Under the pieces are notes generated by a model. That model worked only from the letters and a program-made list of their open reading frames with translations. It did not search any database and was not told where the DNA came from. From a virus, in the IMG/VR virus record IMGVR_UViG_3300046028_005371, positions 1 to 54,960 of that record: a DNA stretch of 54,960 bases. One strand, written 5' to 3'. Shown here one piece after another: positions 19,953-52,190 of the stretch (position 1 is the first letter of the stretch; every line of letters starts with the position of its first letter). Made by a program: the position numbers and the translations under genes.

Positions 19953-19997
19953 TTTAATTTTCTCCGATGTTAAGGCAGAGGATTGCCACATATTTCT

Positions 19998-23536: not shown

Positions 23537-24073
23537 ATGGTATTGCATTCGATAAACGATCTATCAAATCAACATGTAGTTGAGATGTTAAAAAATAATT
23601 TAAGTTTAATTAAAGATCCTACAATAATTAGCAATTATCATCCAGATTATACCAGCACCCCGGGCAATCTTTTTTATATTTTGAATGAAGGTAGGTATCA
23701 AATTGGTAACTATTTTGTAATAGAGGAAGCTGGGGAATATATTGCAAGTGCAGGTTGGAATGAATATGAACTCGATAACGATATAGCGTTGATGTTGACA
23801 CGTATGTATACTGCACCTAAATTTAGGATGAATTACCATGTTGGTAATAACATTTTGCCAATTGCGTTAGGAGAAGTTACAAATTATGAAAAAATATGGA
23901 TAACATGCAATGAGCATAATAGAGCAATCTATGATTGGTTTTCTAGGGTAGAGCATGGTAGACGAGGGGGGTTATTTAATGATTGGCCCGAATTGTATAG
24001 AAGATTTAAACCTATAGGTAAGAAAAATGTCTACTATACTGAACAATATGTAGCAGAGTATAAGAGGACATAA
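23537..24073 (+). CDS. GNAT-like acetyltransferase, predicted leaderless mRNA
   Basis: 178 residues from the ATG at 23537. A frame to 23465 exists, but the late box at 23525 lies inside it. FVIEEAGEYIASAGWNEYE, LMLTRMYTAPKFR and YEKIWITCNEHNRAIYDWF follow the strand order of GNAT N-acetyltransferases, with the last segment as the C-terminal helix and strand. The acetyl-CoA loop is not canonical, so the acyl donor could differ, for example the acyl carrier protein encoded 1 nt downstream. First gene of the 23.5-31.9 kb cassette. Confidence 0.6.
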   Translation: MVLHSINDLSNQHVVEMLKNNLSLIKDPTIISNYHPDYTSTPGNLFYILNEGRYQIGNYFVIEEAGEYIASAGWNEYELDNDIALMLTRMYTAPKFRMNYHVGNNILPIALGEVTNYEKIWITCNEHNRAIYDWFSRVEHGRRGGLFNDWPELYRRFKPIGKKNVYYTEQYVAEYKRT

Positions 24074-24298
24074 ATGAACAGAACAGAAAAATTAAATTTT
24101 TTAATTAATAAAATTAAAAAAATGCATCCAACAACTACAGAAATTGATGAAGATACAGTACTAAGAGAGATAGGACTGGATAGCTTAGATATTGTAGAAT
24201 TACAATTGTATTATGAAGAAGAAACTAATGAGGAAATTCCTGACCCTGAATTTCCTATTGTCACTGTAAAAGATCTTATTAATGTAATATGTCAATAA
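24074..24298 (+). CDS. Acyl/peptidyl carrier protein
   Basis: 74 residues, acidic four-helix type. The phosphopantetheine motif LDSLDIVE is present with Ser37 as the attachment site. The ATG follows the GNAT stop immediately. It would carry an acyl or aminoacyl thioester for neighbouring enzymes (PP-loop ATPase, desaturase, GNATs), after activation by a host phosphopantetheinyl transferase; no such gene is visible here. A carrier protein in a phage is unusual. Confidence 0.87.
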   Translation: MNRTEKLNFLINKIKKMHPTTTEIDEDTVLREIGLDSLDIVELQLYYEEETNEEIPDPEFPIVTVKDLINVICQ

Positions 24299-25230
24299 AC
24301 TTTACTCAAAATAATCATTTAACTTATACAATAGGTGACAGATTATTCGGTTTCAGAGAAACTCCGTACGAACATTATAAAGTATCAGTAGGCGCAATAG
24401 ATCAAGATTACTATAGAACAAGCAATTGGTTAACTGAACAATACAGAACGGCTGATATCATTTACAAAGAATTTGGCAAAGATTTAATTGTTATGTTTAG
24501 TGGCGGCACTGATAGTGAGATTGTTCTAAGAGCCTTTAAACATATAGGTATTATACCTAGAGCAGCATTTATTAAATTTAAAAATGATTACAATATACAA
24601 GACTATGAGATAGCAAAAACTATAACAAATGAGTTAGACATTGATTTAGAAGTAATCGAGTTTGATGTAAAAGAATTTTATAGAAGTGGTGAAGCGGCTG
24701 ATTTTGCGACAATACTTCAATGTCGACAAATTGCTTATCTAACAGTTTATTATAACATATTAAAAATGCAGGCACCTGCAGTCATGGGCGGAGAAATGTT
24801 ACTAAAACGGCATGTGGACCATAGTGAAAGTAAATGGTACTATTGTATTCGAGAAAATGAAGATGCCAGTGCAATGAGATTTAGTTTGAAATACAATATT
24901 CCATTAGTAAACGAATGGTTTAGTTACACCCCAGAAATGATAGGATACTATTTAGAAGATCCGGAAATTCAACGATTAATTACTGAAAGATACAATTATA
25001 AACTATCAAGTGTGAGTTCTAAAAATGAAATATTGCAAAGATTGTTTCCTAATATTATAGATAAAGTAAAGACACACGGATACGAACAACTAATGGGATT
25101 CAATGGGGAAGCATATAGAGAGTTATATCTAACTCATCCTAAGCGATTAGCGCCTAGTTTAGATGGTATTTTTATTGATGATTTAAAATTTCAATTATAC
25201 GGGAAAGATTATGACAGTGGTAAAACTTAA
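24289..25230 (+). CDS. PP-loop (N-type) ATP pyrophosphatase, asparagine-synthetase-like
   Basis: 313 residues. LIVMFSGGTDSEIVLRAF (about 67-84) is the PP-loop SGGxDS of enzymes that adenylate a carboxylate or carbonyl and release PPi. No N-terminal glutaminase domain is present, so ammonia or another nucleophile must come from elsewhere. The start overlaps the carrier-protein stop by 10 nt. Two further PP-loop proteins are encoded at 30807-31913 and 33595-34491. It may activate the carrier-bound or a free carboxylate; substrate unknown. Confidence 0.75.
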   Translation: MSINFTQNNHLTYTIGDRLFGFRETPYEHYKVSVGAIDQDYYRTSNWLTEQYRTADIIYKEFGKDLIVMFSGGTDSEIVLRAFKHIGIIPRAAFIKFKNDYNIQDYEIAKTITNELDIDLEVIEFDVKEFYRSGEAADFATILQCRQIAYLTVYYNILKMQAPAVMGGEMLLKRHVDHSESKWYYCIRENEDASAMRFSLKYNIPLVNEWFSYTPEMIGYYLEDPEIQRLITERYNYKLSSVSSKNEILQRLFPNIIDKVKTHGYEQLMGFNGEAYRELYLTHPKRLAPSLDGIFIDDLKFQLYGKDYDSGKT

Positions 25231-25810
25231 TAGTTCACACACAGAAGCAGTTAAGCAATTGTTTACAACTAAAAAATATATGGGAGTACACGTAACTGAC
25301 GCGAGCTTTACACAAGATCAACCAACGTTAAATTTTAACAAATTAGTATACGATATTTTTTGTTCAAATTATCTAAGTGATCTAACTAATTTTCATGCCT
25401 ACGGTTATTTGGAAGACGGCGTTGTTAAAGCATTAATTTCTTTTTATGAGAGCAACGAAGAGCCGTCTTGGTTCTATACCATTTATCGAAGTAGCGGAAA
25501 CAACAATCTGCTGAGATATGTTCTAGATGAAGTAATTAAACATAACGAAGAACGCGGCAGATTAAAATTTTATACGCTAACCAGTGCTACACATACTAGG
25601 TTGTTACGCAGATTTCATTGGAGTAAATACAATAACGAGCGGTACGGATACTTTGACGAATTTTTAGTGCCAGCTAGAAATAAATGTTTCTATATCAACC
25701 CTTGGGAATTATTATATAAAAGATTCTTAGTTCCTGAAGATTCTATAGTGAGATGCAATTATCTAAAACAAGAATATAGAACTACATTACCTATTGGAGG
25801 AAACATATGA
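25211..25810 (+). CDS. GNAT-fold-like protein
   Basis: 199 residues. HAYGYLEDGVVKALISFYES then WFYTIYRSSGNNNLLRYVLD and LKFYTLTSATHTRLLRRFHW fit the beta-strand and helix order of GNAT transferases, though the pyrophosphate loop is degenerate. Overlaps the PP-loop gene by 20 nt and the desaturase gene by 4 nt. Probably part of the same pathway. Confidence 0.5.
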   Translation: MTVVKLNSSHTEAVKQLFTTKKYMGVHVTDASFTQDQPTLNFNKLVYDIFCSNYLSDLTNFHAYGYLEDGVVKALISFYESNEEPSWFYTIYRSSGNNNLLRYVLDEVIKHNEERGRLKFYTLTSATHTRLLRRFHWSKYNNERYGYFDEFLVPARNKCFYINPWELLYKRFLVPEDSIVRCNYLKQEYRTTLPIGGNI

Positions 25811-26601
25811 ATTACTTAACTACTATACCAAAATCTTTTTGGTTTCAATTCTTGCCAGCATGGATCTTTGGATGTACTGCAATTATACTATTATTTGTAG
25901 GCATTATTCCTGCATATTATCTTATTGCTACGTTCATTATGTGGATATTGGTATGTGGGTTAGGTATTGCAGTAGGGTATCATAGAGTATTCAGTCATAG
26001 AACACATCAACTTTCTACATGGAAAGAAAATATTATTTTATTTCTTGCAACATTTGCAGGCCAAGGCGGCAGTATATTTTGGGCAGCTATGCATAGGGGC
26101 TATCATCATCCACATAGTGACACTATAAAAGATTTACATAGTCCCGTGGCATACGATAAAAAAACTGCGTTTGTTGGATGGTATTTTAAAGTTACAGAAG
26201 CATCAAATCCTATCAATATAAAGTATGCTGTTGATTTATTAAAGAAACCTAATCATGTATTTTTTCATAAGCATAGTATAAAAATTCTTTGGGGAATTCC
26301 TTTGCTAGTAGCAATGTTTGATTGGAAACTTGCATTAACTGCATTTTGGTTAGTAACGCTAATAGGATCTACTCAAGATAATTTAGTTAATGTATTTGGT
26401 CATGTAAAAGGTTGGCTCGGCTATAGAAACTTTGAAACCAAGGATAATTCTCAGAATAATATCATCTTGGGATATCTAGCTTGGGGTCAAGGGTGGCACA
26501 ACAATCATCATTACGCACCGGCATCATATGATTTTGGTAAAGGTGTTAGCGGCAAATGGTGGGAATGGGACCCTTGTAATATTTTTAAGGTACTGCTATG
26601 A
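25807..26601 (+). CDS. Membrane fatty-acid desaturase (acyl-CoA/acyl-ACP type)
   Basis: 264 residues with hydrophobic segments at about 15-55 and 75-95 and again around 160-195. All three histidine boxes are present: GYHRVFSH (57-64), HRGYHHPHSD (96-105) and WHNNHH (230-235), the di-iron ligands of delta-9-type membrane desaturases. It would introduce a double bond in an acyl chain at the inner membrane. Together with the carrier protein two genes upstream, it suggests a lipid-derived product or altered membrane lipids. Overlaps both neighbours by 4 nt. Confidence 0.92.
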   Translation: MNYLTTIPKSFWFQFLPAWIFGCTAIILLFVGIIPAYYLIATFIMWILVCGLGIAVGYHRVFSHRTHQLSTWKENIILFLATFAGQGGSIFWAAMHRGYHHPHSDTIKDLHSPVAYDKKTAFVGWYFKVTEASNPINIKYAVDLLKKPNHVFFHKHSIKILWGIPLLVAMFDWKLALTAFWLVTLIGSTQDNLVNVFGHVKGWLGYRNFETKDNSQNNIILGYLAWGQGWHNNHHYAPASYDFGKGVSGKWWEWDPCNIFKVLL

Positions 26602-27194
26602 ATAAAAATGATTTGCTTTGCCATATTGGACAAAACTTTAAAGTTGATTGGGATGTTGAAGGAGTTTTAAAAAAACTTGACCGGTATGTAGTCGATGAAC
26701 CAACAAATGATTTGAAAGAACATCATCCATTAAGAAATATAGACTATCCTTGTTTCCAAAAATATCCAAGTGGAGTAGCAGTCACTCATAATTTTTCTAA
26801 ATTCTTCTTAGAAGAATGCATTAACCTGTGTGATAATTTAACTGAACTACAACGTAATATTAAAGATCAACCTATAAACTCTACTATGTTTAAACAATTT
26901 ATCACAGTTTCTTTTCACCCCAGATTTGTGAGATTGATAGAATGTAATAACCCTATAATACCCCATACAGATTTAAGAGAATATGCACTTAATATAGGTT
27001 TAAAAAACACATCTAACGGAATAACAAACGTCAGTGAATCAAAAGATAAAAAAAATGTTAAGGGTGTACCTTCTTATGAATTTCAGATGAATGATGGGGA
27101 TGTAGTAATGTTAAATACTCACCACGCTCATTGGGTTAATTTAATAGATACTAATGTCAAGCGATATATTATATCATATAATTTAAAAACCTAA
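26598..27194 (+). CDS. Fe(II)/2-oxoglutarate-dependent oxygenase-like protein
   Basis: 198 residues. IIPHTDLREYALNIGL gives the H123-x-D125 iron pair, THHAHW gives the distal His (178, or 175/176), and KRYIISY gives Arg189 for 2-oxoglutarate, in the spacing of double-stranded beta-helix oxygenases. Would hydroxylate or desaturate a substrate using O2 and 2-oxoglutarate. Overlaps the desaturase gene by 4 nt. Substrate unknown. Confidence 0.7.
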   Translation: MNKNDLLCHIGQNFKVDWDVEGVLKKLDRYVVDEPTNDLKEHHPLRNIDYPCFQKYPSGVAVTHNFSKFFLEECINLCDNLTELQRNIKDQPINSTMFKQFITVSFHPRFVRLIECNNPIIPHTDLREYALNIGLKNTSNGITNVSESKDKKNVKGVPSYEFQMNDGDVVMLNTHHAHWVNLIDTNVKRYIISYNLKT

Positions 27195-27238
27195 TAGTAT
27201 GCCAATTTGTTTATCTGCATTGTGTCATAATTACACGG

Positions 27239-27246
27239 GGTAAATA
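27239..27246 (+). promoter_or_regulatory. Late-promoter-like box GGTAAATA
   Basis: Variant of TATAAATA, 5 nt before the ATG at 27252. A GGGG run just upstream of it could alternatively serve as a ribosome site, so the leaderless reading is less certain here. Confidence 0.4.
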
Positions 27247-27251
27247 TAATC

Positions 27252-27842
27252 ATGGACGCACAACACACTTTAAAATTTTGGGACACACACGGCGGATATG
27301 TTGCAGGACAACCTAATAAGACTGAATTATTAGAAGTAGTTGTGGATTATAAAGATAGCTACGCTGAAATAATCGATAATAAAAATAATTTTACAGCGCA
27401 CTCATATAATCCTGTTTATGTCACTACTGGCCCTCTTAGGGAATGCATAACTGCTCACTTAATAAATGATTCAAAAACTCAGTTAGAAGCGGATAATAAA
27501 TTTTCAAAAACTTTTCTACTACTAGACAAATTGAAACAAATAGTTGATCCAAGCAATAATAAAAAATTAACAAGGGCGTATGTTACTTGTTTAGAATCAG
27601 GTAAGCAAATTTATGCTCATTCTGATACAAAAGGATCTTACTGGGATGCAATAAATCGTTATCAATTTTACTTTACTGGAAACGATGACATGGAGCAGAT
27701 AATAAACGATACGTTGTTCTTAATTAGACCAGGCTATCTTTATTATTTTGATCACAAACAAATACATTCATATCACAATAACAGTTCTCAAGATTTGTTT
27801 TTAATGGTGTTTGATGTAGAAAAAAATACTATAGAAAGATAA
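27252..27842 (+). CDS. Aspartyl-hydroxylase-like (cupin-fold) oxygenase
   Basis: 196 residues. IYAHSDTKGSYWDAINRYQF carries H123-x-D125, and GYLYYFDHKQIHSYHNNSSQ carries the distal His172, as in the aspartyl/asparaginyl beta-hydroxylase branch of Fe/2OG enzymes. Preceded by a 57-nt gap with a late-promoter-like box. Followed after 3 nt by a radical SAM gene. Substrate unknown. Confidence 0.65.
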   Translation: MDAQHTLKFWDTHGGYVAGQPNKTELLEVVVDYKDSYAEIIDNKNNFTAHSYNPVYVTTGPLRECITAHLINDSKTQLEADNKFSKTFLLLDKLKQIVDPSNNKKLTRAYVTCLESGKQIYAHSDTKGSYWDAINRYQFYFTGNDDMEQIINDTLFLIRPGYLYYFDHKQIHSYHNNSSQDLFLMVFDVEKNTIER

Positions 27843-27845
27843 ATT

Positions 27846-29132
27846 ATGTTCTGTAAAACAGTGTGGAACGGGTTACACATTTTGCCGGATGGTTATATTA
27901 GGCTTTGTTCGATTGGGAATAATTTTGACAGTACATTAGATATGCAACGAGCAAGAGACAAAGATGGCAAAGTAATGCACATACTAACTCACGATATCAA
28001 GGATATTATGAACTCTGATAAACATAAACAGGTTAGAGCGACTAATATTAAAGATCCTAGTGCATGGAGCCCTCATTGCGATTGTTGTGAAAATAGAGAA
28101 ATAGTTACAGGTTTTGACAGGAAACATCCTAACAAAAGTCGTCGTGTGTATTTGATGCAGGTAGACAGTGAAGTTAATGAAGATAATTTTAAAAATTCTG
28201 CAGAAATCGATGGGACAGTTGACTGGATGCCAAATAGTTTAGATATTAGATTTGGAAACTTATGTAATCAAAAATGTATAATGTGTAATCCTACTTTTAG
28301 TAACTTATGGTATGATGAGCATTACGGTTATTTTAAAAATAATAATTTTGGTCAAGGATCAAAAATTACTGTTATAAAAGATGAAAAAACAGGTAAGTGG
28401 ATTGAGCCCCCTGAATTAAGTTGGTTTGAAGATCCTAGATGGTGGCCGAAGTTTGACACTATGATGCCCTATCTAAAACATATCTATGTTACAGGAGGAG
28501 AACCCATGGTAGCTCCTGCACACGATATAATGTTAGATAAATTAATAGAATCGGGATATGCAAAGGATATTTGGTTAGAATATGATAGTAACTGTAGCGC
28601 CATTAATAATAAAATTGTCGAAAGGTGGTCGCATTTTAAAAGAGTAGATATTCGAGCAAGTGCAGATGCTATTAAAGATCAATATGAAGTTATTCGATAT
28701 GGCGGTAAATGGGACAAGTTTGTAACCAATATTAGAAAATTAAAACAACACCAAAAAGAATCTAATAATAAAATTAGATTAATGAGCGTGTCAACTTGTT
28801 TTCAGATTGCTACATCTATGAGTATTATTGAAACCGAAGAGTGGTGTAAGGAAGAAGGAATTGATTTCCATATGAGATTCTTAACAGGACCAGATTTTCA
28901 TGCAGTATCAAGTCTGTCCGATACTGCAAAGATAAAATTAAGAGATTATTATCTTCAGTATGTTAATACATCTTTAAAGGCTCCTATGATTGTAAAATAT
29001 TTAAATAATCAATTAGGAAAACACAAACCCTCTGCAGTTGAAGAATTTAAGAAATTTATGGATTTTTTAGACACTACTCGGAATACCAATTGGAAAAAAA
29101 TATTTCCAAAAATCGTAGGCTTATTAGATTAA
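27846..29132 (+). CDS. Radical SAM protein with N-terminal twitch-like region
   Basis: 428 residues. LCNQKCIMC (C140, C144, C147) is the CX3CX2C iron-sulfur motif and GGEP (217-220) binds SAM. The N-terminal 130 residues hold extra Cys (C21, C78, C80, C81), matching the twitch-domain radical SAM proteins found in phages, which bind an auxiliary cluster. Related SPASM/twitch enzymes modify peptides or sugars by radical chemistry. Stands between two oxygenase-like genes. Substrate unknown. Confidence 0.88.
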   Translation: MFCKTVWNGLHILPDGYIRLCSIGNNFDSTLDMQRARDKDGKVMHILTHDIKDIMNSDKHKQVRATNIKDPSAWSPHCDCCENREIVTGFDRKHPNKSRRVYLMQVDSEVNEDNFKNSAEIDGTVDWMPNSLDIRFGNLCNQKCIMCNPTFSNLWYDEHYGYFKNNNFGQGSKITVIKDEKTGKWIEPPELSWFEDPRWWPKFDTMMPYLKHIYVTGGEPMVAPAHDIMLDKLIESGYAKDIWLEYDSNCSAINNKIVERWSHFKRVDIRASADAIKDQYEVIRYGGKWDKFVTNIRKLKQHQKESNNKIRLMSVSTCFQIATSMSIIETEEWCKEEGIDFHMRFLTGPDFHAVSSLSDTAKIKLRDYYLQYVNTSLKAPMIVKYLNNQLGKHKPSAVEEFKKFMDFLDTTRNTNWKKIFPKIVGLLD

Positions 29133-29133
29133 G

Positions 29134-29745
29134 ATGGCAAATTATTACAAATTAGGAAAACTCTCTAACAATTTAGTCGACGTTTTTAAATTAGAGATAG
29201 AAAAATTAAAAAGCCACGAAAACTATCAGTGGATTAAATTTAATGATAAAATGCAAGAATTATTTTTAGAGATATTTTCTAGCAAAGAATTAACCATTCA
29301 AAAAAAAGATAACGGGGAATATGTTCAAAAAGTATTTTATTCAGCCCCGGGTCACGGTTTTAGGATTCACAAAGACGGCATCAGATGTAAAAGTGCATTA
29401 AATATTGCTATATCTTCAAATGAATCTGATTGGGTAAGATGGTATAATGAAGATTTTATTAGAAAATTATCTAAGTGTACTACTGTAGACAATGAGTGGA
29501 ATAATTATGGATTATCTAGAAATACAGAAATATACCAATACGATGCAATTCCATTTGAAGATGAGTTAAGGGTAGAAGTTGGAGATATTTACATTTTAAA
29601 TGTTGATAAGTTTCACAGTTTTAAGTGTAACGGCCCTAACCCAAGAATAATTATGCAGACTAAATTTGAGAATTTTCCGTCATTGGACGAACTTTATAAA
29701 AAAATATCTATTAACAATTTTAAAATTCAACCAAATGAAAATTGA
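29134..29745 (+). CDS. Fe(II)/2-oxoglutarate oxygenase-like protein
   Basis: 203 residues. FRIHKDGIRCKSALNIAI contains H79-x-D81, VGDIYILNVDKFHSF contains His161, and NPRIIMQ contains Arg171: a complete iron and 2-oxoglutarate pattern. Begins 1 nt after the radical SAM stop. One of three such proteins in this cassette. Confidence 0.65.
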   Translation: MANYYKLGKLSNNLVDVFKLEIEKLKSHENYQWIKFNDKMQELFLEIFSSKELTIQKKDNGEYVQKVFYSAPGHGFRIHKDGIRCKSALNIAISSNESDWVRWYNEDFIRKLSKCTTVDNEWNNYGLSRNTEIYQYDAIPFEDELRVEVGDIYILNVDKFHSFKCNGPNPRIIMQTKFENFPSLDELYKKISINNFKIQPNEN

Positions 29746-30178
29746 TACAATTTTACTAAACAATAAAAATGTTGAGGTATTTAATAGTAATATGATTGCA
29801 CAGTCTCCTCCATTTAAAATAGCAATGAAGTGTTTTGTTGAACTCCTTGAAAATGATATGGCAACTTCTGTAATACCTTTTCGAAATGTGTCATCTGTAA
29901 TTTGGCTTGAGGATACTGAGAAAAGAATTTTAGGTGGTATTGTTTATGAGATTATTAGCGATAGGCAAGAAGGTTGGATTGATTTGAGCTTTACCGATCC
30001 AAACTTTAGAAACATGGGAGTCAACACAGCATGTCACGAAATTCTTTATAAAATACTAAAGAATAAAGGTATTATTTCTGTAGGCAGTACAGTGTCTGTT
30101 AAAAATACAAGTCGTCTTGCCTCGGCAAAGAAAGTTGGGCTTGAACCTTTATATTACAGAATGTTTAAAAAATTATGA
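29735..30178 (+). CDS. GNAT family N-acetyltransferase
   Basis: 147 residues from the ATG at 29735, which overlaps the oxygenase stop by 11 nt; the frame is open to 29666 but that start is inside the upstream gene. IWLEDTEKRILGGIVYEI and IDLSFTDPNFRNMGVNTACH match GNAT motifs D and A (the latter normally RxxGxG/A, here RNMGVN), with VSVKNTSRLASAKKVGLEP as motif B. Substrate unknown. Confidence 0.75.
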   Translation: MKIDTILLNNKNVEVFNSNMIAQSPPFKIAMKCFVELLENDMATSVIPFRNVSSVIWLEDTEKRILGGIVYEIISDRQEGWIDLSFTDPNFRNMGVNTACHEILYKILKNKGIISVGSTVSVKNTSRLASAKKVGLEPLYYRMFKKL

Positions 30179-30810
30179 ATGACAAGTACATCGTAGTTGA
30201 TATGGAGACTGAGGGTGTACTTTGTGAATCAATAACTCCTAGCATAGCACAAGCAGTATCGCTGGGGTTTATTAATTCTACTATTAAAGTGCTGCCTTTG
30301 AGTTTTTCAAAATTTAAAGAAATGTATGAGAATTATAACTTTAATCAACTAGACATATTTTACACACATCAAAATATGCAAGTTAAAGAAATGAATCCTA
30401 ACATCGTTACAGATAAGTGGATATCTTCTAAAAAATTAGCACACCTAAGAAATAATTTCCATACAGCCTGGGAAGCAAGATGTAAGCAATTTTTGCAAAA
30501 CAGAAATCATGATTTTCATACTCTCGGAGTTCTTGATGGATATTTGTGGAATCAAATAGAAAAATGCGATCCATTAAATGATTATTATACTCAAGCAATT
30601 CACGAATGGGCTTCAATTAGCGATGTTCCACCAGACACTGCATATCAAGAATTAAAAATAAGAGCAGAATCTATAGCATTACAGTACATTAGAAATCATG
30701 CGGTGTACCAGCGATATGTACATTTAATCAATAAAGAGAGAACTGAAAAGGAAATGAGGAAAGTATTTCGTAACGGAATGGAACACCTATACGGAAGGGT
30801 GCAAATATGA
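30175..30810 (+). CDS. Unknown protein of the enzyme cassette
   Basis: 211 residues, soluble, helical C-terminal half (WEARCKQFLQNRNHDFHTLG, HEWASISDVPPDTAYQELKI). No catalytic motif recognised. Linked by 4-nt overlaps to the GNAT and PP-loop genes on either side, so it is almost certainly part of the same unit. Confidence 0.65.
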   Translation: MNDKYIVVDMETEGVLCESITPSIAQAVSLGFINSTIKVLPLSFSKFKEMYENYNFNQLDIFYTHQNMQVKEMNPNIVTDKWISSKKLAHLRNNFHTAWEARCKQFLQNRNHDFHTLGVLDGYLWNQIEKCDPLNDYYTQAIHEWASISDVPPDTAYQELKIRAESIALQYIRNHAVYQRYVHLINKERTEKEMRKVFRNGMEHLYGRVQI

Positions 30811-31913
30811 ATTCTTTATACTTAGCACGATGTACATCGTTAACTCAGTATCAATCTGCGTCAGTGCAACGCTGGGGGAATATGTATAAACTAATAGGTC
30901 TAAATATCAGTGTAGTAGATAGGACTGAGTATGTAAACATGCCGTTTAATTTTAAACTGTTTGACGGATTTAAAATACCAAATATTAAACCTAATTTTAA
31001 TATGTCCTACGAAGACTGTTGTAATCAGAGGGCAGTTGAAATTATAAACTTATCTCGTAGATTAAATAAACCTATTCGTGTTTTGTATTCTGGAGGGATT
31101 GATAGCACTCTTACACTAATATCTTTAATTAAAAATTTAAGTGTACAAGAAAGAAGAGATAGAGTTGTCGTAGCATTGAATACTGATAGTATTGTTGAAA
31201 ATCCTAACTTCTATTACGAACACATACGAAATAATTTTAAAATAGAATCAAGTGATAATATTGGCGCATTCTTAACAGGCGATTGCATAGTACTAGGTGG
31301 AGAATTTAACGATCAACTTTCAGGAAGTGATGTTGTTGGAAAAATTTATAGGCAATATGATTATTCAAAAATAACTTATCCATATTCTCGTGAATATATA
31401 GTTGGTTGGTTTACATTACAGGGGATGTCCGAAGATGGTGCTAACACTTGGTTTAATCTTATTGATTACCAAATAAAAAATATTGCACCCTGCGAAGTTA
31501 AAACAAATTTTGATTTTTTCTGGTGGGTCAACTTTTGCTTTAAATGGCAAACAGTTTTTTTTAGAATGTTAGCAAGAGTTGATGAAAATTATAGGAAACA
31601 CATTACTTTTGATTTTCTTAAAGAACATTTTATTATGTTTTACGGAACGCCCGAATTTCAAATGTGGAGTATGACCAACCCTGATAAAAAATTATTTTCA
31701 ACTTGGAATACATACAAGTGGGAAGCAAAACGAGTAATTTATGAATTTAACAAAGATCAAGATTACCGAGACAACAAAGTAAAAATGGGAAGCCTGTATA
31801 AATTGTTTATACAAAAGAAATCTGCAGAAGCAATAGATTCGAATTTAAATTTTATACACGAGGATGATTTAAATCCTGCTAACTTTTATAATCCAAATAA
31901 CAGCTTCGTTTAA
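30807..31913 (+). CDS. PP-loop ATPase, asparagine-synthetase-like
   Basis: 368 residues. IRVLYSGGIDSTLTLISL (about 90-107) is a canonical SGGxDS PP-loop. The C-terminal half is long and aromatic-rich (FWWVNFCFKWQTVFFRML) and unrecognised. It is the last plus-strand gene of the cassette and converges with the PLP-fold gene 4 bp away. Likely adenylates a carboxylate or amide carbonyl; substrate unknown. Confidence 0.75.
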   Translation: MNSLYLARCTSLTQYQSASVQRWGNMYKLIGLNISVVDRTEYVNMPFNFKLFDGFKIPNIKPNFNMSYEDCCNQRAVEIINLSRRLNKPIRVLYSGGIDSTLTLISLIKNLSVQERRDRVVVALNTDSIVENPNFYYEHIRNNFKIESSDNIGAFLTGDCIVLGGEFNDQLSGSDVVGKIYRQYDYSKITYPYSREYIVGWFTLQGMSEDGANTWFNLIDYQIKNIAPCEVKTNFDFFWWVNFCFKWQTVFFRMLARVDENYRKHITFDFLKEHFIMFYGTPEFQMWSMTNPDKKLFSTWNTYKWEAKRVIYEFNKDQDYRDNKVKMGSLYKLFIQKKSAEAIDSNLNFIHEDDLNPANFYNPNNSFV

Positions 31914-31917
31914 TAAA

Positions 31918-32841
31918 TTAAATAACTGAATTTGGAATTCTAGTATTACAATAGAATTTGCTAAAACAGATTCTATTGTTGTTATCTGATCCTCGATTAT
32001 ATCGTTGATATTTTTTTGATTCATCTAGCCCAAATATGACAGTGTTGCTAGGAATAAGATTGAATTTGTTACAAAATTCTAATTGGGTGTTTCTATAATC
32101 GTTATATGTGCTATCAGCAGTTTTAATTTCTAAAACTTTCAATCCGACATAGGCGCTTAACCTATTTTGGTATTGAGAATTAGTGTATGCTCCAATACCG
32201 TCCAAGTCTGTGTACTTTGAAAATCGCATTCCTATTCTTAATAAATTTACAGGAAATGTTTTGCTTAGACTAAAACAAACTTCTTTAATAGCAGGATGAG
32301 TAAAGTCAAATTTAATATTACTACATATACCAAAATATGCACAGTCTAGAAGAACAGGTATGTTTTTACTATGACATGTATCTAAAAAATTCGAATTAAA
32401 CAGATGATGTACATTTCCTGTATCTGCAAACGGTAGGCTTACTATTACAGCATCGTTTTCTAAAAGATCTTCTGAATTTTCGATAGTTGCATAATTGGAA
32501 TTTTCTAATGATATTTTATGATAAAGGTATTCTCCTTTAAAAAATCTAAATCGTTTTCCTTGATGTCGTATATAAAATTTATCAAATGCTTCAGATGTTC
32601 CTTGAGTAAAATCTAATCTACTAAACTCCTCTAACCCTGTTACGACATTCGACGTTGTACTGTATATCCATTGTTTATATTTTGATAAAAAATTAGGTAT
32701 TATTGTTTGATCACTTAACGCATCATGATTAACGGCATCGATAATAATATTGTTGATTATCTTAGATAATTTAAGATCTTCTACACAACATGCAGGGGCC
32801 ATTTCTAACCCTAGGAGATTTTCTTGTAACGGTAATGTCAT
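31918..32841 (-). CDS. PLP-dependent aminotransferase-fold protein, divergent
   Basis: 307 residues, shorter than fold-type I aminotransferases (about 390). NDAVIVSLPFADTG, PVLLDCAYFGICSNIKFDF (Asp that binds the PLP ring nitrogen) and EVCFSLSKTFPVNLLRIGM (SLSK lysine that forms the Schiff base) follow the order of class I/II enzymes. Clearly paralogous to the protein at 49402-50172: both share FNLIPSNT and FGLD near the C terminus. Would act on an amino or oxo group of the cassette product. Confidence 0.7.
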   Translation of the reverse strand: MTLPLQENLLGLEMAPACCVEDLKLSKIINNIIIDAVNHDALSDQTIIPNFLSKYKQWIYSTTSNVVTGLEEFSRLDFTQGTSEAFDKFYIRHQGKRFRFFKGEYLYHKISLENSNYATIENSEDLLENDAVIVSLPFADTGNVHHLFNSNFLDTCHSKNIPVLLDCAYFGICSNIKFDFTHPAIKEVCFSLSKTFPVNLLRIGMRFSKYTDLDGIGAYTNSQYQNRLSAYVGLKVLEIKTADSTYNDYRNTQLEFCNKFNLIPSNTVIFGLDESKKYQRYNRGSDNNNRICFSKFYCNTRIPNSVI

Positions 32842-32846
32842 AATTA

Positions 32847-32969
32847 TTAAAAAATATAGATAAACGATATTGCAATTAGCATATCTCGAATTTCGGAATC
32901 GGACATAGTATCTACATCGATTCCTCTTGAAAAAATATTTCCTATATAAGTAAAACAGCTTTTGATCAT
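32847..32969 (-). CDS. Very small protein between cassette genes
   Basis: 40 residues (MIKSCFTYIGNIFSRGIDVD... ending FIYIF). The ATG overlaps the stop of the upstream sulfotransferase-like gene as ATGA and the stop is 5 nt before the next ATG, the same coupling as elsewhere in the cassette. That spacing is the main evidence that it is translated. Function unknown. Confidence 0.5.
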   Translation of the reverse strand: MIKSCFTYIGNIFSRGIDVDTMSDSEIRDMLIAISFIYIF

Positions 32970-33598
32970 AATTTTACCAAGCACACTTTAACTCTTTGAA
33001 AAAATTGTAAAAAATCTTGTGTTTTTAAATTGTTAAGTACTTTGAGATTCTCATCAGTTACTGTATGATTAAAGTTTTCTTGAATCCACCTAGTATTAAA
33101 ATACTCCCACCTTTGGTCGTATTTTTGGGCAAAGTCTGAATAGATTTCATTAAGCTTCATTATTTCGCCCATCATGCCTGCATTTCCGCCGTAGCTCTCA
33201 TAACTTGGATATTTAACAGAGTATCCACCGTGATTATTCCACCAGGCAAAACAATCAATACTGTCTCTTTGAACCATGATTAACCAATCTCCTGCAAATA
33301 GATCTTTTAATCCGTCGAGCATATATGCCCAATCATGGCCTTTTACAAATCTTCCAGGAGCAGTACTTTCAAATGCACTGTCAATATATGCCGCATCTAA
33401 TTTGCAATCAAATTCATACTTTCGATGCGGTAGTCCAAAATATGCACCGTGATGCCCTTGAAAAACATTATGATCGTAACACCTATTTACATTTCTATCG
33501 CTGGTGTTTACTCCTGGTATAGATTCTAAAAGATGGGTTACACTAGTCCATTTACATCCCGGTGCCCCAGTTACAAAAATTCTATTAGGAAGATTCAT
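32966..33598 (-). CDS. P-loop sulfotransferase-like protein
   Basis: 210 residues, paralogue of the protein at 11333-11908: MNLPNRIFVTGAPGCKW, GVNTSDRN, HHGAYFG, VKGHDWAYMLD, WLIMVQRD and YSVKYPSY correspond position by position. FVTGAPGCKWTSV fits a PAPS-binding or other phosphate-binding loop. It overlaps the neighbouring PP-loop gene by 4 nt. Sulfation of the cassette product is one possible role; other P-loop chemistry is not excluded. Confidence 0.65.
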   Translation of the reverse strand: MNLPNRIFVTGAPGCKWTSVTHLLESIPGVNTSDRNVNRCYDHNVFQGHHGAYFGLPHRKYEFDCKLDAAYIDSAFESTAPGRFVKGHDWAYMLDGLKDLFAGDWLIMVQRDSIDCFAWWNNHGGYSVKYPSYESYGGNAGMMGEIMKLNEIYSDFAQKYDQRWEYFNTRWIQENFNHTVTDENLKVLNNLKTQDFLQFFQRVKVCLVKL

Positions 33599-34491
33599 TT
33601 ATTTTCAATATTTACATGACATATTCTAATGCCAGTACTAATCTTATTAAGATTGAACACTGTTTGGTTTTCTAATCGCATTAGTAAATTTTCTAATTTA
33701 CCATGGTCGGTATCCCAATTAGTAGTTTTTCCTTTAAAAATTAAATTTTCGCCCCATAAGTTTTTTATACTATCTCTGTTAGAGATAAGTGGGAGATCAA
33801 ATGTAGTTAGGGGATCATGCCAGCTGGACAATATTAATTCTTTAGTAGATGCAAAGAAGTAATAATCACCATTCCTGTTATGCTGTCTAGCCCATAGCCA
33901 ATATGATATCTCAGTATTTGACATACTCAAAAATTTTGTATTTTGTTCTGTTATAATATCAGAGTTTTGATAATCACCATCACTTTTATTAATATCACCT
34001 TCGCCACAAATAATATAATAATCATTTGGAATTGCTAAAAACAGCATAGGTAAAATTAGATATGTTGGTTTATTAACTCTTACTTTATCATACTGCTCTT
34101 TAGCAAAACTAAATGCATCCTCTCGAGTAACAGTCACTACATTTAATTTTACATCTAATTCTGTAGACAATTGTTGGCACAATGTCAACATATAGTCGTT
34201 TATTCCCCAGTTGCTTAAAAAGAACAGCTCAAAATTTAATCCAATATCCTTTGCTTCTCTAGCAATAATTTCACTATCAACTCCTGATATGCAAACAGCA
34301 AGTTTTTTATCGCTTAACTGCATTAGTCGATTTCGTATAGCTTGTTTAAAAGTAACTGAGGGATTGTATTCCTCATACAGATTTTCGTAATCAAATAAGA
34401 ATTCTACTTTGTTATTATATGGCACATCGGTGTAATCTCCAAATTCAACTGAATTGATTAACCATTTGATGTGTTGAGGAATTGATAGCAT
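33595..34491 (-). CDS. Divergent PP-loop ATPase-like protein
   Basis: 298 residues. KLAVCISGVDSEIIAREA (about 62-79) aligns with the SGGTDSE segment of the 24289-25230 protein but one PP-loop glycine is Val. FELFFLSNWGINDYMLTLC and VKLNVVTVTREDAF continue the same fold order. It may have lost ATP hydrolysis or changed substrate. Its ATG lies 29 nt after an exact TATAAATA late box, with an AAAGGA ribosome site, so it heads the minus-strand half of the cassette. Confidence 0.65.
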   Translation of the reverse strand: MLSIPQHIKWLINSVEFGDYTDVPYNNKVEFLFDYENLYEEYNPSVTFKQAIRNRLMQLSDKKLAVCISGVDSEIIAREAKDIGLNFELFFLSNWGINDYMLTLCQQLSTELDVKLNVVTVTREDAFSFAKEQYDKVRVNKPTYLILPMLFLAIPNDYYIICGEGDINKSDGDYQNSDIITEQNTKFLSMSNTEISYWLWARQHNRNGDYYFFASTKELILSSWHDPLTTFDLPLISNRDSIKNLWGENLIFKGKTTNWDTDHGKLENLLMRLENQTVFNLNKISTGIRICHVNIENK

Positions 34492-47143: not shown

Positions 47144-47704
47144 TTATAACAGTGATTCTAGTTTAAAAATTAACTCAGGGTCAATCTTACTGATCCATTC
47201 TTTTATACTATGTCTTTCTAAGTTAATATTTTGTGCATTCCTAGTAACTGCATATTTAAAATCAAAACACATAAGTTGACCGTTTTTTCCAGTCAAATTA
47301 CACATAGCATTATTTAATTTATACATATTATGCTGTTTAAAAAATTTAAACATATGTTCTATTTGTTCTGTTATATTAGGAAAGACAATATTTAAATCAT
47401 TGCGGGGATATTGTAATAAGTCCGGCCCCGGCCACTCTTGCAAAATATAATATCCAAATTGATCGTCTAATTTGCCATGTTCATATGTTTTTACTAATAG
47501 ATCCGATTTTAATTTTGTAGACCAATATATTTCATTTTTATAAAGTTTGTTAATTTCTTCTATGGTATTATGCACTGGTGGACGATTTTGAATAGTATTG
47601 CCGTTAATTTTATAGTATTTTTTAACCAATTTTTCATCTTTGTCTATCCATACTTCGGCTAAACTTCCTCTAGATCCATTAACTGAATAATATCGTTCAA
47701 ACAT
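47144..47704 (-). CDS. Protein-kinase-fold-like protein (possibly pseudokinase)
   Basis: 186 residues from the ATG at 47704, which overlaps the upstream stop by 8 nt. KLVKKYYKING resembles the beta3 lysine strand, NEIYWSTKLKSDLLVKTYEH the alphaC and beta4 region, YYILQEWPGPDLLQ the hinge, and NAMCNLTGKNGQLMCFDFKY the catalytic loop and DFG segment (here DFK; the HRD Asp is missing). That suggests an aminoglycoside-kinase-like fold that may be inactive or altered. Last gene of the second cassette. Confidence 0.55.
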   Translation of the reverse strand: MFERYYSVNGSRGSLAEVWIDKDEKLVKKYYKINGNTIQNRPPVHNTIEEINKLYKNEIYWSTKLKSDLLVKTYEHGKLDDQFGYYILQEWPGPDLLQYPRNDLNIVFPNITEQIEHMFKFFKQHNMYKLNNAMCNLTGKNGQLMCFDFKYAVTRNAQNINLERHSIKEWISKIDPELIFKLESLL

Positions 47705-48434
47705 ATAAATTATCAATAATCTCTGTGTAATAAGTTTCTAAAATATCTGTCACGTATGATATTTTATCTGCATTGAAATCTTCATTGAGTTGGGTGGATA
47801 GCCAAGACAATATTGCTGCTGTGTCTTTGTTTGATAATAATGTATAAAAATCAAAATATTCTGTAACAGGTTTGTTGTTAAATTTCTTCAATGAATAGTT
47901 CCAAAATATATCAGTCAATGGATAACATATTTTACACCTAGTACTTTGATATAAATTTGCTATTTCTGTCTTTGGAATTAGTGAAATACATCGAATGTTA
48001 TATCCAAGATCCTGCATTTCTTTAAAAGGAATAGCTTTATCCCAAGAATGAATTCCGTATAATATTCTATAATTTTTCATTTCATATTTAGAATTTTCGT
48101 AAAATTTTAATTTGGTATCCCCCCAATTCCACTGTTGTTGGCCGGCCAATAAATGTGTTCCTAAAAATTCAAAAAATTGAACATAGTCATTTATACCAGT
48201 GGGTTCACAACGGTCTAAAAACCAATTAGTAATTCTTTTTGGTACAATTATTTCATATGCTATCTCTCTAGAAGATTTATGAGAATTAATAGGAATATCA
48301 GATAAAATTTTAGTATTGGTATAATCTAATTTAATATCCAACTCTGACCAAATACGCATTAGAAGTTGACCGGATCCGCCGGGTAAATAGTCGAACAATA
48401 TTAATTCATTATTTGTTAAAAATGGGTATTTCAT
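47697..48434 (-). CDS. Unknown protein with P-loop-like N terminus
   Basis: 245 residues. ELILFDYLPGGSGQLLMRIW near the N terminus looks like a strand followed by a glycine-rich phosphate-binding loop, as in sulfotransferase-like or kinase-like folds. The rest (NYRILYGIHSWDKAIPFKEM, CISLIPKTEIANLYQSTRCK) gives no further hint. Joined by a 4-nt ATGA overlap to the radical SAM gene upstream. Confidence 0.5.
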   Translation of the reverse strand: MKYPFLTNNELILFDYLPGGSGQLLMRIWSELDIKLDYTNTKILSDIPINSHKSSREIAYEIIVPKRITNWFLDRCEPTGINDYVQFFEFLGTHLLAGQQQWNWGDTKLKFYENSKYEMKNYRILYGIHSWDKAIPFKEMQDLGYNIRCISLIPKTEIANLYQSTRCKICYPLTDIFWNYSLKKFNNKPVTEYFDFYTLLSNKDTAAILSWLSTQLNEDFNADKISYVTDILETYYTEIIDNLYV

Positions 48435-49405
48435 TGTTTTGTTTTAGTGGTTAACAGATCATGAAAACACCCACATGTAACCTTATTACAAATAACTGCG
48501 TTATTAGAAAAATTATACTTAAGATCGTCAACATGTCCAATTGGGCCAGTGACTCCACATACTGATCTGTTAATAGTCTGGAAGTTAATGTCCAAGAAAT
48601 CTTTTCCTACCTGACATTCCCATCCTAAAAATTTATTCCATTTATTTTTCATAAGTTGTTGAACGTTAATATTTTTTGTAATTCCTAAATTATTAGTTAC
48701 TAATAATTCAGCACCTAACCGTAACTTATTTGGAATAGGAGATTTTTTTTTAATATTTGTTAGTATTCCAGGTTTATAACTAGCGTGTTTAATAATAGAT
48801 AGTTCTTCCTCTGAGTATAGGTCATAGATATCATATTCGTCAATATTCATTCCTTTAATATCAATTATTCCACCAGTGTTGTTTATTAAATAATTAAATG
48901 CGTTAATTGCTTGAGGAATATTATCTTTAGTATGTGTAACTTCACATACTGTTTCAGTTTCAAAATTAAGAAATAAATTCATTATATCAGCAATATTATT
49001 ATAATCAACCGTTTGTTCAGCATGATATGTTAATGCTAGACGAGTTAATATATTATCAATTTTGGCCAATTCTTTCCACCAGCGCATTGTTCTAGAACCG
49101 TTACTTGCTAATATATTCCAAGCACCTTTATTTTTTGAATGCTGCAATAACTCTATTAAATCAGGATATAATGTAGGTTCACCTCCAGTATAAACAATAT
49201 AAAAAGGAGTTCCTACACATGCCTCAGCAATTTTATCAACAATTGATTTGTACTTTTCTAATGTAAACCACCGTTCATTTCCACTATTATTTTCTTTACC
49301 ACAAAAACTACACGAGTAATTGCATACATTATGTAGTTTCCAGTTAATTACTTTAAATGGTTGAGGGACTGATCTTTTAACGTGAATTGGATATACATTA
49401 TTCAT
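48431..49405 (-). CDS. Radical SAM protein, SPASM-like C terminus
   Basis: 324 residues from the ATG at 49405, whose ATGA overlaps the PLP gene stop; the frame to 49429 has no better support. VCNYSCSFC (C28, C32, C35) binds the SAM cluster, and YTGGEPTLYPDLIELL is the SAM-binding GGEP region. The C-terminal third has several Cys (WECQVG, RSVCGV, VICNKVTCGC) that could hold auxiliary clusters. Such enzymes modify peptides or small molecules. Substrate unknown. Confidence 0.88.
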   Translation of the reverse strand: MNNVYPIHVKRSVPQPFKVINWKLHNVCNYSCSFCGKENNSGNERWFTLEKYKSIVDKIAEACVGTPFYIVYTGGEPTLYPDLIELLQHSKNKGAWNILASNGSRTMRWWKELAKIDNILTRLALTYHAEQTVDYNNIADIMNLFLNFETETVCEVTHTKDNIPQAINAFNYLINNTGGIIDIKGMNIDEYDIYDLYSEEELSIIKHASYKPGILTNIKKKSPIPNKLRLGAELLVTNNLGITKNINVQQLMKNKWNKFLGWECQVGKDFLDINFQTINRSVCGVTGPIGHVDDLKYNFSNNAVICNKVTCGCFHDLLTTKTKQ

Positions 49406-50172
49406 AATTTTAGTAAGTGACTTATGCATAAACGATTGACTGATCCCCGTTTAAAACTTATATATTTTTCAGAGTAATCTAATCCAAATAATATAGTATT
49501 AGACGGTATAAGGTTAAATTCTTGGCAAACAGCTAATTGAGAATCTTTATATTTTTGTATCATTGAGTCCGGAGACATTGTATCTAATAATGTATAATGA
49601 TGTTCAGCACAGGCTACTAGTGGATAATGCCACTGCGAATATACGGTTACTGGATACGGATCTACGGTATATAATAATCCAACTCTATGTAATCCTGTGC
49701 CAAAAGATTTAGATAATGAAAAACAAACACTGTGTATATTTTTATAACTAGAAAAATCAAAATCTATATCGTGACATACTCCAAAAAAAGCACAGTCAAC
49801 AAATATGGGTTTATTATAAGAATCTGCAATTTTAATTTTTTCATGTGAACTCATTCCGTCAGCACTAAATGGATGACTTACTACTATTGCATCTGCTTCG
49901 TCTAAATTAAAAGTAACACGATTTTTAATAACCAATGAATGATAGCCATATTCACTTTCAAATATTCCTATCTTATTATACATTCCATACATTTGATTAA
50001 ATGCATCAGTTACACCTGATACAATATAATATGATTTAGGCAATCCTTTTACCGGTTGAGTGGATGAGTGAATCCATTTATTAAATTTTTCTTTAAATTT
50101 AATAAATTGAGAAATATCTACTGATTCTGGCTCTATTGCAATTGCTGCATTTGTTATTTTATCAAATCTCAT
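49402..50172 (-). CDS. PLP-dependent aminotransferase-fold protein, short
   Basis: 256 residues. YYIVSGVTDAFNQMYGMY, DAIVVSHPFSADGM, PIFVDCAFFGVCHDIDFDF and SVCFSLSKSFGTGLHRVGL give the PLP-phosphate loop, Asp and Schiff-base Lys in class I/II order. Paralogue of the protein at 31918-32841 (shared FNLIPSNT, FGLD and CFSLSK). It is about 130 residues shorter than typical enzymes, so the small domain is reduced. 4-nt overlaps on both sides. Confidence 0.72.
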   Translation of the reverse strand: MRFDKITNAAIAIEPESVDISQFIKFKEKFNKWIHSSTQPVKGLPKSYYIVSGVTDAFNQMYGMYNKIGIFESEYGYHSLVIKNRVTFNLDEADAIVVSHPFSADGMSSHEKIKIADSYNKPIFVDCAFFGVCHDIDFDFSSYKNIHSVCFSLSKSFGTGLHRVGLLYTVDPYPVTVYSQWHYPLVACAEHHYTLLDTMSPDSMIQKYKDSQLAVCQEFNLIPSNTILFGLDYSEKYISFKRGSVNRLCISHLLKL

Positions 50173-52189: not shown

Positions 52190-52190
52190 A

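Follow-up and report, generated by a model that had tools for sequence, protein, structure and literature searches.

Large hypervariable islands have been described in T4-like aquatic phages. In pelagimyophages they contain radical SAM gene cassettes, and the hypervariable regions were termed host recognition clusters, for which serotype conversion was proposed; a freshwater group, the fonsimyophages, encodes fabF, a stearoyl-CoA desaturase and a 2OG protein (PMC7029224). For neither group does the accessible part of that paper report a conserved operon of PP-loop, GNAT, ACP and desaturase genes. Lipid desaturases of cyanophages are a further case of phage-encoded fatty acid desaturases (Roitman et al. 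2018, as cited in PMC11480375), a feature shared with the desaturase studied here. The Pelagibacter phage isolate Mosig EXVC030M (MT647606, ~54-68 kb) carries an island that resembles our cassette in having a desaturase (phage-family profile, 5e-35), a gnatA-type GNAT (7.5e-10) and a PLP protein (3e-30); Fe/2OG, TauD, Asp_Arg_Hydrox and radical SAM genes belong to the same block. Among isolates, Mosig was the sole one in which this analysis detected a related island. However, this island gave no match for ACP, PPa or gnatB and has a different gene order. Genes for a carbamoyltransferase, a nitroreductase and an FMN reductase take their place, and tail fibre genes adjoin the island.

The window, the whole stretch of 54,960 nucleotides of viral DNA analysed here, holds a cassette of about 15 linked enzyme genes (Table 1). 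Its coordinates and its two converging units were as described in a first-pass annotation: a tightly packed unit of 12 genes (23537-31913, plus strand) faces a unit of three genes (31918-34491, minus strand). Neighbouring genes mostly overlap by 4-20 bases or are separated by 0-4 bases, and wider gaps are found only at 27194/27252 and 32841/32966. Dozens of viral contigs repeat this gene order, so the cassette is a genuine one and no random assembly. The novelty claimed for it has to be reduced in view of the similar islands in pelagimyophages (PMC7029224) and Mosig; since divergent counterparts occur in Bdellovibrionales chromosomes and partly in Mosig, such islands are not wholly new. As for the phage being T4-like, such ancestry is supported for a relative (L025/G006), and we do not extend it to the window itself.

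Table 1. Predicted genes of the cassette, the second block and their flanks in the window.
Feature	Position	Strand	Basis or remark
gnatA, GNAT-fold acyltransferase, opens core	23537..24073	+	AlphaFold, Foldseek
ACP, acyl carrier protein, predicted phosphopantetheine site Ser37	24074..24298	+	PF00550, PHROG 5934, PDB ACP profile
PPa, PP-loop (N-type ATP pyrophosphatase) ligase, in invariant heart	24289..25230	+	motif, fold
gnatB, GNAT-like protein	25211..25810	+	73/78 loci; weak PDB profile
DES, membrane acyl desaturase, stearoyl-CoA desaturase type	25807..26601	+	PF00487, 4ymk
OXa, Fe(II)/2OG-dioxygenase-like	26598..27194	+	motif
OXb, Asp/Asn beta-hydroxylase-family dioxygenase	27252..27842	+	PF05118, motif
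rSAM, radical SAM enzyme, N-terminal twitch domain	27846..29132	+	NF033640
OXc, Fe(II)/2OG-dioxygenase-like	29134..29745	+	motif
GNAT acetyltransferase-family protein	29735..30178	+	PF00583
Protein without known family; reading frame overlaps both neighbours	30175..30810	+	
PPb, second PP-loop protein (SGGIDS)	30807..31913	+	motif; weak DndC
PLP fold-type-I-like protein, shortened	31918..32841	-	SLSK lysine, PDB profile
Protein without known family, kept in L030	32966..33598	-	42% identity to L030 copy
PPc, third PP-loop-like protein, short motif SG-VDSE	33595..34491	-	BLAST family of PPa, alignment
Second block, seven genes	47144..53024	-	Pfam/NCBIfam
Second block, protein without known family	47144-47716	-	
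Second block, protein without known family	47697-48434	-	
Second block, radical SAM protein	48431-49429	-	
Second block, PLP protein	49402-50172	-	
Second block, Fe/2OG protein (50169 protein)	50169-50648	-	HxD...H + Arg
Second block, B12-radical SAM	50645-52189	-	PDB relatives AprD4, CysS, TokK
Second block, f126	52191-53024	-	
Epimerase	20032-21003		flanks 23537-34491 block
UDP-glucose dehydrogenase family	21000-21803		flanks 23537-34491 block
DUF707	53047-53748		flanks 47144-53024 block
Epimerase	53752-54690		flanks 47144-53024 block

PPa is encoded in 78 viral contigs, and its family forms 58 clusters at 95% identity, i.e. at least 58 distinct virus sequences. When other phages were searched for the same gene order, as had been suggested, gnatA-ACP-PPa-gnatB-DES was intact in 25 of the 78 contigs. 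PPa and gnatB occur together in 73, which are all the contigs that reach beyond PPa, and gnatB follows PPa in each of them; the remaining five stop within ~20 bases of PPa or inside the gene. A desaturase is present in 70 of the 78. The invariant heart of the system therefore comprises the PP-loop, GNAT-like and desaturase genes and not the ACP, around which the cassette had been thought to be centred. An ACP is present in only 33 of the 78 loci, and in 24 of the ACP-less loci the 1 kb upstream of PPa holds no ACP-like reading frame. As most of the related loci lack the ACP, ACP dependence cannot be general, and we rejected the ACP as an obligatory centre. The order of the core is maintained across several genome contexts at 54-78% identity. 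Distances of PPa correlate with those of gnatB (Mantel r 0.62) and ACP (0.61), therefore these genes travel together, and pN/pS values of 0.11-0.51 show purifying selection on the genes. Wrong folds or unlinked single genes had been named as grounds for abandoning the first-pass annotation; for the core, most folds stand and the genes are linked. The genes downstream of the core form a variable pool that differs in nearly every phage: at least one oxygenase is encoded in 67 of the 78 loci, in 44 different oxygenase sets, and a 264 kb phage (G005) holds 17 such genes inside ~13 kb.

A PHROGs search left gnatA, PPa and gnatB without a match, the PPa protein had no counterpart among 50,697 phage records, and no near-identical DNA was found in isolated phages. 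Spread of the core by plasmids was rejected, as 72,556 plasmids gave no match. The desaturase of Acinetobacter phage MD-2021a was also rejected as a relative, because its neighbourhood (accD, trpA/B, btuB and the like) makes the record look like a bacterial chromosome. A literature search, with preprints and most subscription journals outside its reach, found no paper describing the operon. Cellular genomes were scanned for PPa relatives with two short peptide patterns only, so that relatives beyond Bdellovibrionales may have escaped the scan. Bdellovibrionales chromosomes (L037, L038, L078 and L086) encode a PP-loop protein 26-29% identical to PPa and relatives of the desaturase, Fe/2OG and B12-radical SAM proteins; in L037, PP-loop, two desaturase, GNAT-like, ACP, B12-radical SAM and Fe/2OG genes lie together. 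Unlike the phage core, these clusters are cellular and divergent, with another order and spacing.

The start codon of gnatA was placed from an alignment of 20 relatives. A Pfam search gave no match, whereas the AlphaFold model (pLDDT 94) adopts a GNAT fold and matched GNAT acetyltransferases in Foldseek (E 2e-5). There were 53 PDB matches at E <= 0.001, and among the matches listed all were GNAT acetyltransferases, so that gnatA is predicted to have the GNAT fold. The carrier protein with Ser37, already recognised in the first-pass annotation, matched the Pfam PP-binding family (PF00550, E 1.4e-6, above cut-off) and a PDB ACP profile (E 2.7e-11) and falls in PHROG 5934. Its D36-S37-L38 (DSL) is invariant in 19 sequences, and it is assigned to the type II acyl carrier proteins, which are four-helix ACPs with a DSL site. 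In one locus (L022) gnatA and ACP are fused into one protein. GnatB, with conserved W87, E113, R117, Y145, R181 and C182, may be GNAT-like; its PDB profile match to the acetyltransferase 3dsb has an E value of only 0.019. The GNAT assignments made earlier thus hold best for gnatA by fold and for the 29735 protein by Pfam (Acetyltransf_1, PF00583, E 2.4e-6; a relative in 12 of the 78 core loci), and less well for gnatB.

In PPa, the motif SGGTDSE is invariant in 27 sequences, and the AlphaFold model (pLDDT 86) matched asparagine synthetase (Foldseek, 1.7e-6) as well as carbapenam synthetase, MnmA and LarE. An SGGxDS motif on a Rossmann-like fold identifies PPa as a PP-loop N-type ATP pyrophosphatase. 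The modelled PPa shares the PP-loop ligase fold with asparagine, beta-lactam and carbapenam synthetases, but is without their N-terminal glutaminase domain and only ~8-12% identical over the match. A glutamine-hydrolysing asparagine synthetase was rejected: only ~60 of the 313 residues precede the PP-loop, and the Pfam search gave no Asn_synthase match. HIV gp120 chains that matched the PPa profile were discarded as low-significance noise. The other proteins annotated as PP-loop ATPases are weaker cases than PPa. PPb shows SGGIDS in an alignment of three sequences and matches DndC weakly (0.0014), and PPc, of the same BLAST family as PPa, has a shortened SG-VDSE in the alignment and matches TtuA (3e-4).

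DES matched FA_desaturase (PF00487, E 2.8e-9) and the acyl-CoA desaturase 4ymk (profile E 5e-23), in agreement with its annotation as a three-His-box desaturase. The stearoyl-CoA desaturase family is defined by the boxes HxxxxH, HxxHH, NxxxH and HxxHH; H59 H64, H96 H100 H101, N195 H199 and H231 H234 H235 are invariant in 24 sequences. All ten expected metal-ligand positions are thus occupied; DES has the full di-iron ligand set and belongs to this family. DES differs from stearoyl-CoA desaturase in that it has 264 residues, is phage-borne and lies within a ligase/GNAT operon. In the terminal-alkyne systems JamA/B/C a membrane desaturase also stands beside an ACP, and desaturation is carrier-bound. 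A cassette of that type was rejected, as none of the 15 cassette proteins was recognised by Pfam as an acyl-AMP ligase.

The three Fe/2OG-like proteins of the first-pass annotation were supported, and together with the 50169 protein they are predicted by motif to be Fe(II)/2OG dioxygenases. All four keep the HxD...H iron triad; a conserved Arg follows the distal His in three of them, OXb being the exception. The residues are H123, D125, H178 and R189 in OXa (6 sequences), H123, D125 and H172 in OXb, and H79, D81, H161 and R171 in OXc (20-sequence and 11-sequence alignments). OXb matched Asp_Arg_Hydrox (PF05118, E 1.3e-6, above cut-off), OXa reached only 0.076 with JmjC in Pfam, and OXc had no relative by sequence in PDB. 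The twitch radical SAM call proved sound: rSAM scored 270 bits against the curated NF033640 cut-off of 170 (NCBIfam, E 3.6e-80), and CxxxCxxC (C140, C144, C147) and N-terminal C3, C21, C78 and C81 are invariant, consistent with a twitch-domain enzyme. For the PLP protein, an aminotransferase profile match in PDB (8e-5) and the invariant SLSK lysine 194 give weak support. No support was obtained for a sulfotransferase at 32966..33598, for which neither a Pfam match nor a meaningful PDB match was found; the protein is 42% identical to its copy in the contig L030. The 30175..30810 protein had no Pfam, PHROG or locus relative.

The extent given earlier is right for the cassette, but the system reaches further, to the second block at 47144-53024. 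L030 carries six genes of this block at 84-95% identity and in unchanged order, and we assign the block to the same system because in L030 it lies directly upstream of gnatA-ACP-PPa.

We propose, tentatively and as a reading somewhat short of probable, a modular pathway in large tailed aquatic phages that makes an unsaturated acyl amide, tailored per phage. For substrates, reaction order, product class and purpose we infer the following scheme. Host enzymes would charge the phage ACP with a fatty chain, or host ACP or CoA would serve where the ACP gene is absent, and the SCD-type membrane desaturase would add a double bond. GnatA would transfer the chain from the carrier to a small acceptor with an amine group, so that an N-acyl amide forms. 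With gnatB as its partner, PPa may then use ATP to activate an oxygen of a carboxyl or amide group and join a second amine, a reaction likened to those of asparagine and beta-lactam synthetases. Fe/2OG oxygenases, radical SAM, B12-radical SAM and PLP enzymes and further ligases may decorate the product; that downstream genes and core share one molecule is a proposal. With the core kept and decorating genes exchanged, the variant made would differ from phage to phage, and the core in at least 58 virus sequences suggests that some phages make a small fatty molecule. Its most likely target would be the envelope of the infected cell, or else competitors. The acyl-amide pathway is favoured by the GNAT-ACP fusion, the DSL site, the di-iron set and the intact PP-loop with a ligase fold. 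Against it, no enzyme loading a chosen acyl chain onto the ACP was identified in the cassette, and DES resembles acyl-CoA enzymes most. Since GNAT and PP-loop folds span many reactions, the assignment is a class-level guess. The 'complete pathway' claimed earlier is not borne out, as no acyl-loading enzyme was identified and tailoring genes differ per phage. Possible, with less confidence, is an undescribed non-NRPS, non-PKS pathway class in which a PP-loop ligase/GNAT/desaturase core shared by large aquatic phages makes acyl-amide natural products, diversified by exchange of tailoring enzymes among phages and used in lytic infection.

Unlikely, though the strongest of the other explanations, is surface glycan decoration, in which an acyl, amide or amidine group, made and attached to an amino sugar of host lipopolysaccharide or of the virion, would alter phage recognition (serotype conversion or superinfection exclusion). 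PP-loop amidotransferases (WbpG/PseA) and ACP-linked acyl groups are known from O-antigen loci. Sugar-nucleotide genes flank both window blocks, an epimerase-family gene follows the core in L024, L025 and L028, and a group 1 glycosyltransferase lies downstream in L020, L024 and L025. The position of the Mosig island and the serotype-conversion proposal for host recognition clusters (PMC7029224) fit as well. However, glycosyltransferase or epimerase families were found near the core in only 18 of the 78 loci, the core is without a transferase attaching its product to glycan, and O-antigen synthesis does not usually involve a membrane desaturase.

Remodelling of membrane lipid is rather improbable. 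An ornithine-lipid-like phage aminolipid pathway, built from an acyl-ACP-dependent GNAT, a desaturase and an Asp/Arg-hydroxylase-family lipid hydroxylase, would alter fluidity or receptors in infection. ACP, GNAT, SCD desaturase and the Asp_Arg_Hydrox-family OXb do occur together, and OlsB and OlsC of ornithine lipid synthesis belong to the same protein families. The fabF and desaturase genes of fonsimyophages (PMC7029224) also agree with it. Yet the PP-loop ligase, the most conserved gene, would be left unexplained, as would the B12-radical SAM, PLP and several oxygenase genes. No second, OlsA-kind acyltransferase was identified, so that the likeness to the pathway of OlsB-type GNAT and OlsA is one of family only.

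That the genes are auxiliary ones piled up loosely in a hypervariable region, unrelated and without a joint product, is improbable and for the core already disfavoured. The downstream sets vary in nearly every phage, and at least 544 viral stretches contain a B12-radical SAM relative; the best 80 of these loci had no core PP-loop gene within the 8 kb flank examined, one of them (L142) being the L030 contig, where PPa lies just outside that flank. The core, on the other hand, keeps its order across genome contexts and is accompanied by these enzyme families in the chromosomes of Bdellovibrionales as well. Least likely is RiPP-style modification of a phage or host protein such as tail fibres: protein-modifying enzymes commonly come from the auxiliary-cluster radical SAM, Fe/2OG hydroxylase, GNAT, PP-loop and methyltransferase families, and pelagimyophage islands adjoin tail fibre genes, but ACP and membrane desaturase do not fit and an unsystematic look identified no precursor-peptide candidate.

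Should a discrete small molecule be the product of the core, lytic phages would run a true secondary-metabolite pathway in the infected cell, beyond boosting host reactions, and would diversify it by swapping tailoring genes; new chemistry could then be drawn from them. The many Fe/2OG, radical SAM and B12-radical SAM genes of aquatic phages that lack an explanation would gain a testable role and be tied to a conserved five-gene core compact enough for expression in E. coli.

The T4 late promoter TATAAATA occurs 5 times in the window against 8.9 expected and shows no enrichment. Two of the five sites head the two cassette units, one of them lying within a few bases of the start codon; relatives were inconsistent for TATAAATA at unit heads, and we leave this as an oddity. 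For the TctC protein, considered as a pointer to the host, the best plasmid-borne relatives are ~30% identical and spread across beta- and alphaproteobacteria.

The core of the first-pass finding is sound, and the cassette is a predicted biosynthetic operon that is conserved, mobile and diversifying, rather than an isolated and complete pathway as had been proposed. Its plus-strand unit holds twelve genes, mostly with overlaps of a few bases, and meets a minus-strand unit of three genes. The region is AT-rich (G+C about 0.29-0.34, versus mostly 0.36-0.44 in the flanks), and another AT-rich block lies at 47-53 kb. The protein calls were checked by Pfam, PHROGs, NCBIfam and PDB profiles and by two AlphaFold models. 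The acyl carrier protein (ACP), the three-His-box desaturase (DES) and the twitch radical SAM enzyme, all called before, each passed the profile tests directly, as did an Asp/Asn-hydroxylase-family protein. A significant Pfam match was not found for the PP-loop ligase PPa; its modelled fold is the asparagine-synthetase/MnmA/LarE PP-loop, in agreement with the earlier call. Likewise, gnatA had no match in Pfam, and its AlphaFold model (pLDDT 94) is a GNAT, in line with the earlier GNAT-like call. The three putative Fe/2OG oxygenases are retained based on HxD...H motifs conserved in family alignments, with Pfam added for one. The PLP-fold call is weakly supported and still plausible, and the sulfotransferase-like call failed the Pfam and PDB tests.

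Features of the IMG/VR virus record (54,960 bases, 38 tRNA genes) and of related loci
Feature	Position	Strand
Plus-strand cassette unit	23537-31913	+
gnatA	23537-24073	+
ACP	24074-24298	+
PPa	24289-25230	+
gnatB (GNAT-like)	25211-25810	+
DES	25807-26601	+
Minus-strand cassette unit	31918-34491	-
Second block	47144-53024	-
TATAAATA octamer heading a cassette unit	23525-23532	+
TATAAATA octamer heading a cassette unit	34521-34528	-
QueD-like protein and GTP cyclohydrolase genes	4271-4777 and 19215-19991	-
TctC-type solute-binding protein gene (family f41)	11875-12852	+
Bax inhibitor-1 family membrane protein (Pfam E 9.6e-54)	14836-15525	-
D-alanyl-D-alanine carboxypeptidase, peptidase S11 (Pfam 1.6e-29)	16093-16842	-
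tRNA genes	39819-46666; 35025-35099; 38819-38892	
Radical-SAM-rich island (L224)	G005:43-58 kb	
tRNA-Met gene upstream of gnatA	L004:9155-9231	
tRNA-Met gene upstream of gnatA	L024:9056-9133	
tRNA-Met gene upstream of gnatA	L028:9058-9135	

No near match to the window was found among 50,697 phage records. A viral scan with its PPa protein gave 35 loci (54-78% identity), and a PPa alignment gave 78. Among these 78, the order gnatA-ACP-PPa-gnatB-DES recurs in 25; gnatA-PPa-gnatB-DES and DES-PPa-gnatB are each found in 18. gnatB is present in 73 loci; the remaining five contigs stop inside the PPa gene or within about 20 bases of it. A desaturase lies at most 4.5 kb away in 70 loci; gnatA was found in 51 and ACP in 33. 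When PPa was collapsed at 95% identity (58 clusters), its distances correlated with those of gnatB (r 0.62), ACP (0.61), desaturase (0.41) and gnatA (0.34), indicating that PPa and gnatB are the tightest pair and that desaturase and gnatA are swapped more freely. In one locus (L022) gnatA and ACP form a single protein, which argues that the two cooperate where ACP is present.

Around this core the gene sets vary. Of 13 oxygenase families, one or more occur in 67/78 loci, in 44 distinct sets. A radical SAM family is present in 41/78, an extra PP-loop protein in 38/78, a methyltransferase in 24/78 and an extra desaturase in 11/78. A 264 kb relative, G005, packs 17 such genes into a stretch of about 13 kb surrounding the core; its second island holds four rSAM-family and two rS2-family radical SAM genes. 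The second block of the window recurs in L030 with 84-95% identity and order kept, immediately upstream of gnatA-ACP-PPa, and the two blocks were therefore treated as one system. Pairwise pN/pS values were 0.11-0.18 for desaturase, gnatB and PPa, 0.3-0.5 for gnatA, ACP and oxygenases and 0.13-0.23 for second-block genes; they are rough, since synonymous changes approach saturation in several pairs of the first block, but show that these genes are under purifying selection.

Beyond the folds, catalytic motifs, gene order, fusion and selection observed here, a chemistry can be proposed. In these protein families, an ACP holds an acyl chain in thioester linkage, desaturases of the SCD type use oxygen and a di-iron site to put double bonds into acyl chains, GNAT enzymes transfer acyl groups to amines, and PP-loop ligases adenylate an oxygen that is then displaced by an amine. 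The product would be an unsaturated N-acyl amide, which PPa and gnatB may extend and oxygenases and radical SAM enzymes may tailor. More than half of the loci lack ACP, implying that the ACP or CoA of the host can take its place. The main rival is that the cluster decorates a glycan, as sugar-nucleotide genes flank both window blocks and glycosyltransferase genes lie near the core in some relatives; however, the latter holds for only 18/78 loci. For the proposed amide, action on the envelope of the infected cell or against competitors is most plausible.

The isolated Pelagibacter phage Mosig EXVC030M carries, next to its tail fibre genes, an island with related desaturase, GNAT, PLP, TauD and Fe/2OG genes. 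PMC7029224 describes hypervariable host recognition clusters of pelagimyophages that gain radical SAM cassettes, and freshwater members with desaturase, fabF and a 2OG protein. It is therefore already known that T4-like phages of aquatic habitats carry biosynthetic genes in hypervariable islands. The conserved PP-loop/GNAT/ACP/desaturase operon appears to be an undescribed variant: no description was found in the literature search, and its central genes are absent from PHROGs. Relatives of the B12-radical SAM family occur in at least 544 stretches of viral contigs. Many of these lie in islands (L147, L149, L151, L155, L158-L163, L166 and others) that combine several genes of the radical SAM, Fe/2OG, desaturase and PLP types and in which no PP-loop core was seen within the DNA scanned; they form a broader group of cryptic islands in phages.

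When 84,980 species were scanned with two short peptide patterns, PPa relatives were found only in four Bdellovibrionales records, and further cellular relatives may be missed because of these patterns. A profile search found them in 24/141 Bdellovibrionales genomes. The chromosomal locus L037 has PP-loop, two desaturase, GNAT-like and ACP genes on one strand, adjoined by B12-radical SAM and Fe/2OG genes, and L038, L078 and L086 have partial sets. As identity is below 30%, the kinship with the phages is deep and not a recent transfer. The desaturase of CAKLQH020000002.1 (L097), a record named Acinetobacter phage MD-2021a, was rejected as a relative; the stretch seen resembles a bacterial chromosome (accD, trp genes, btuB, baeRS).

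The surroundings of the core differ between genomes. In L018 and relatives it follows ribonucleotide reductase and virion-like genes; in L025 and relatives it lies close to genes for terminase, single-strand-binding protein and recombinase; in the window, L003 and L027 it follows a 22649-type gene. T4-superfamily ancestry of the relative L025/G006 is supported by terminase, a T4-type single-strand-binding protein and helicases. In three L025 relatives a tRNA-Met gene directly precedes gnatA and is possibly the insertion point for the core. The T4-late-promoter-like octamer occurs only five times in the window.

All 20 amino acids are represented among the tRNA genes of the window, which form a nearly complete set for translation. 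The TctC-type gene, of the tripartite tricarboxylate type, is unusual cargo for a phage and is also present in 13/78 core loci. The QueD-like and GTP cyclohydrolase genes suggest that some steps of a 7-deazaguanine (preQ0) pathway are encoded, which may serve in DNA modification.
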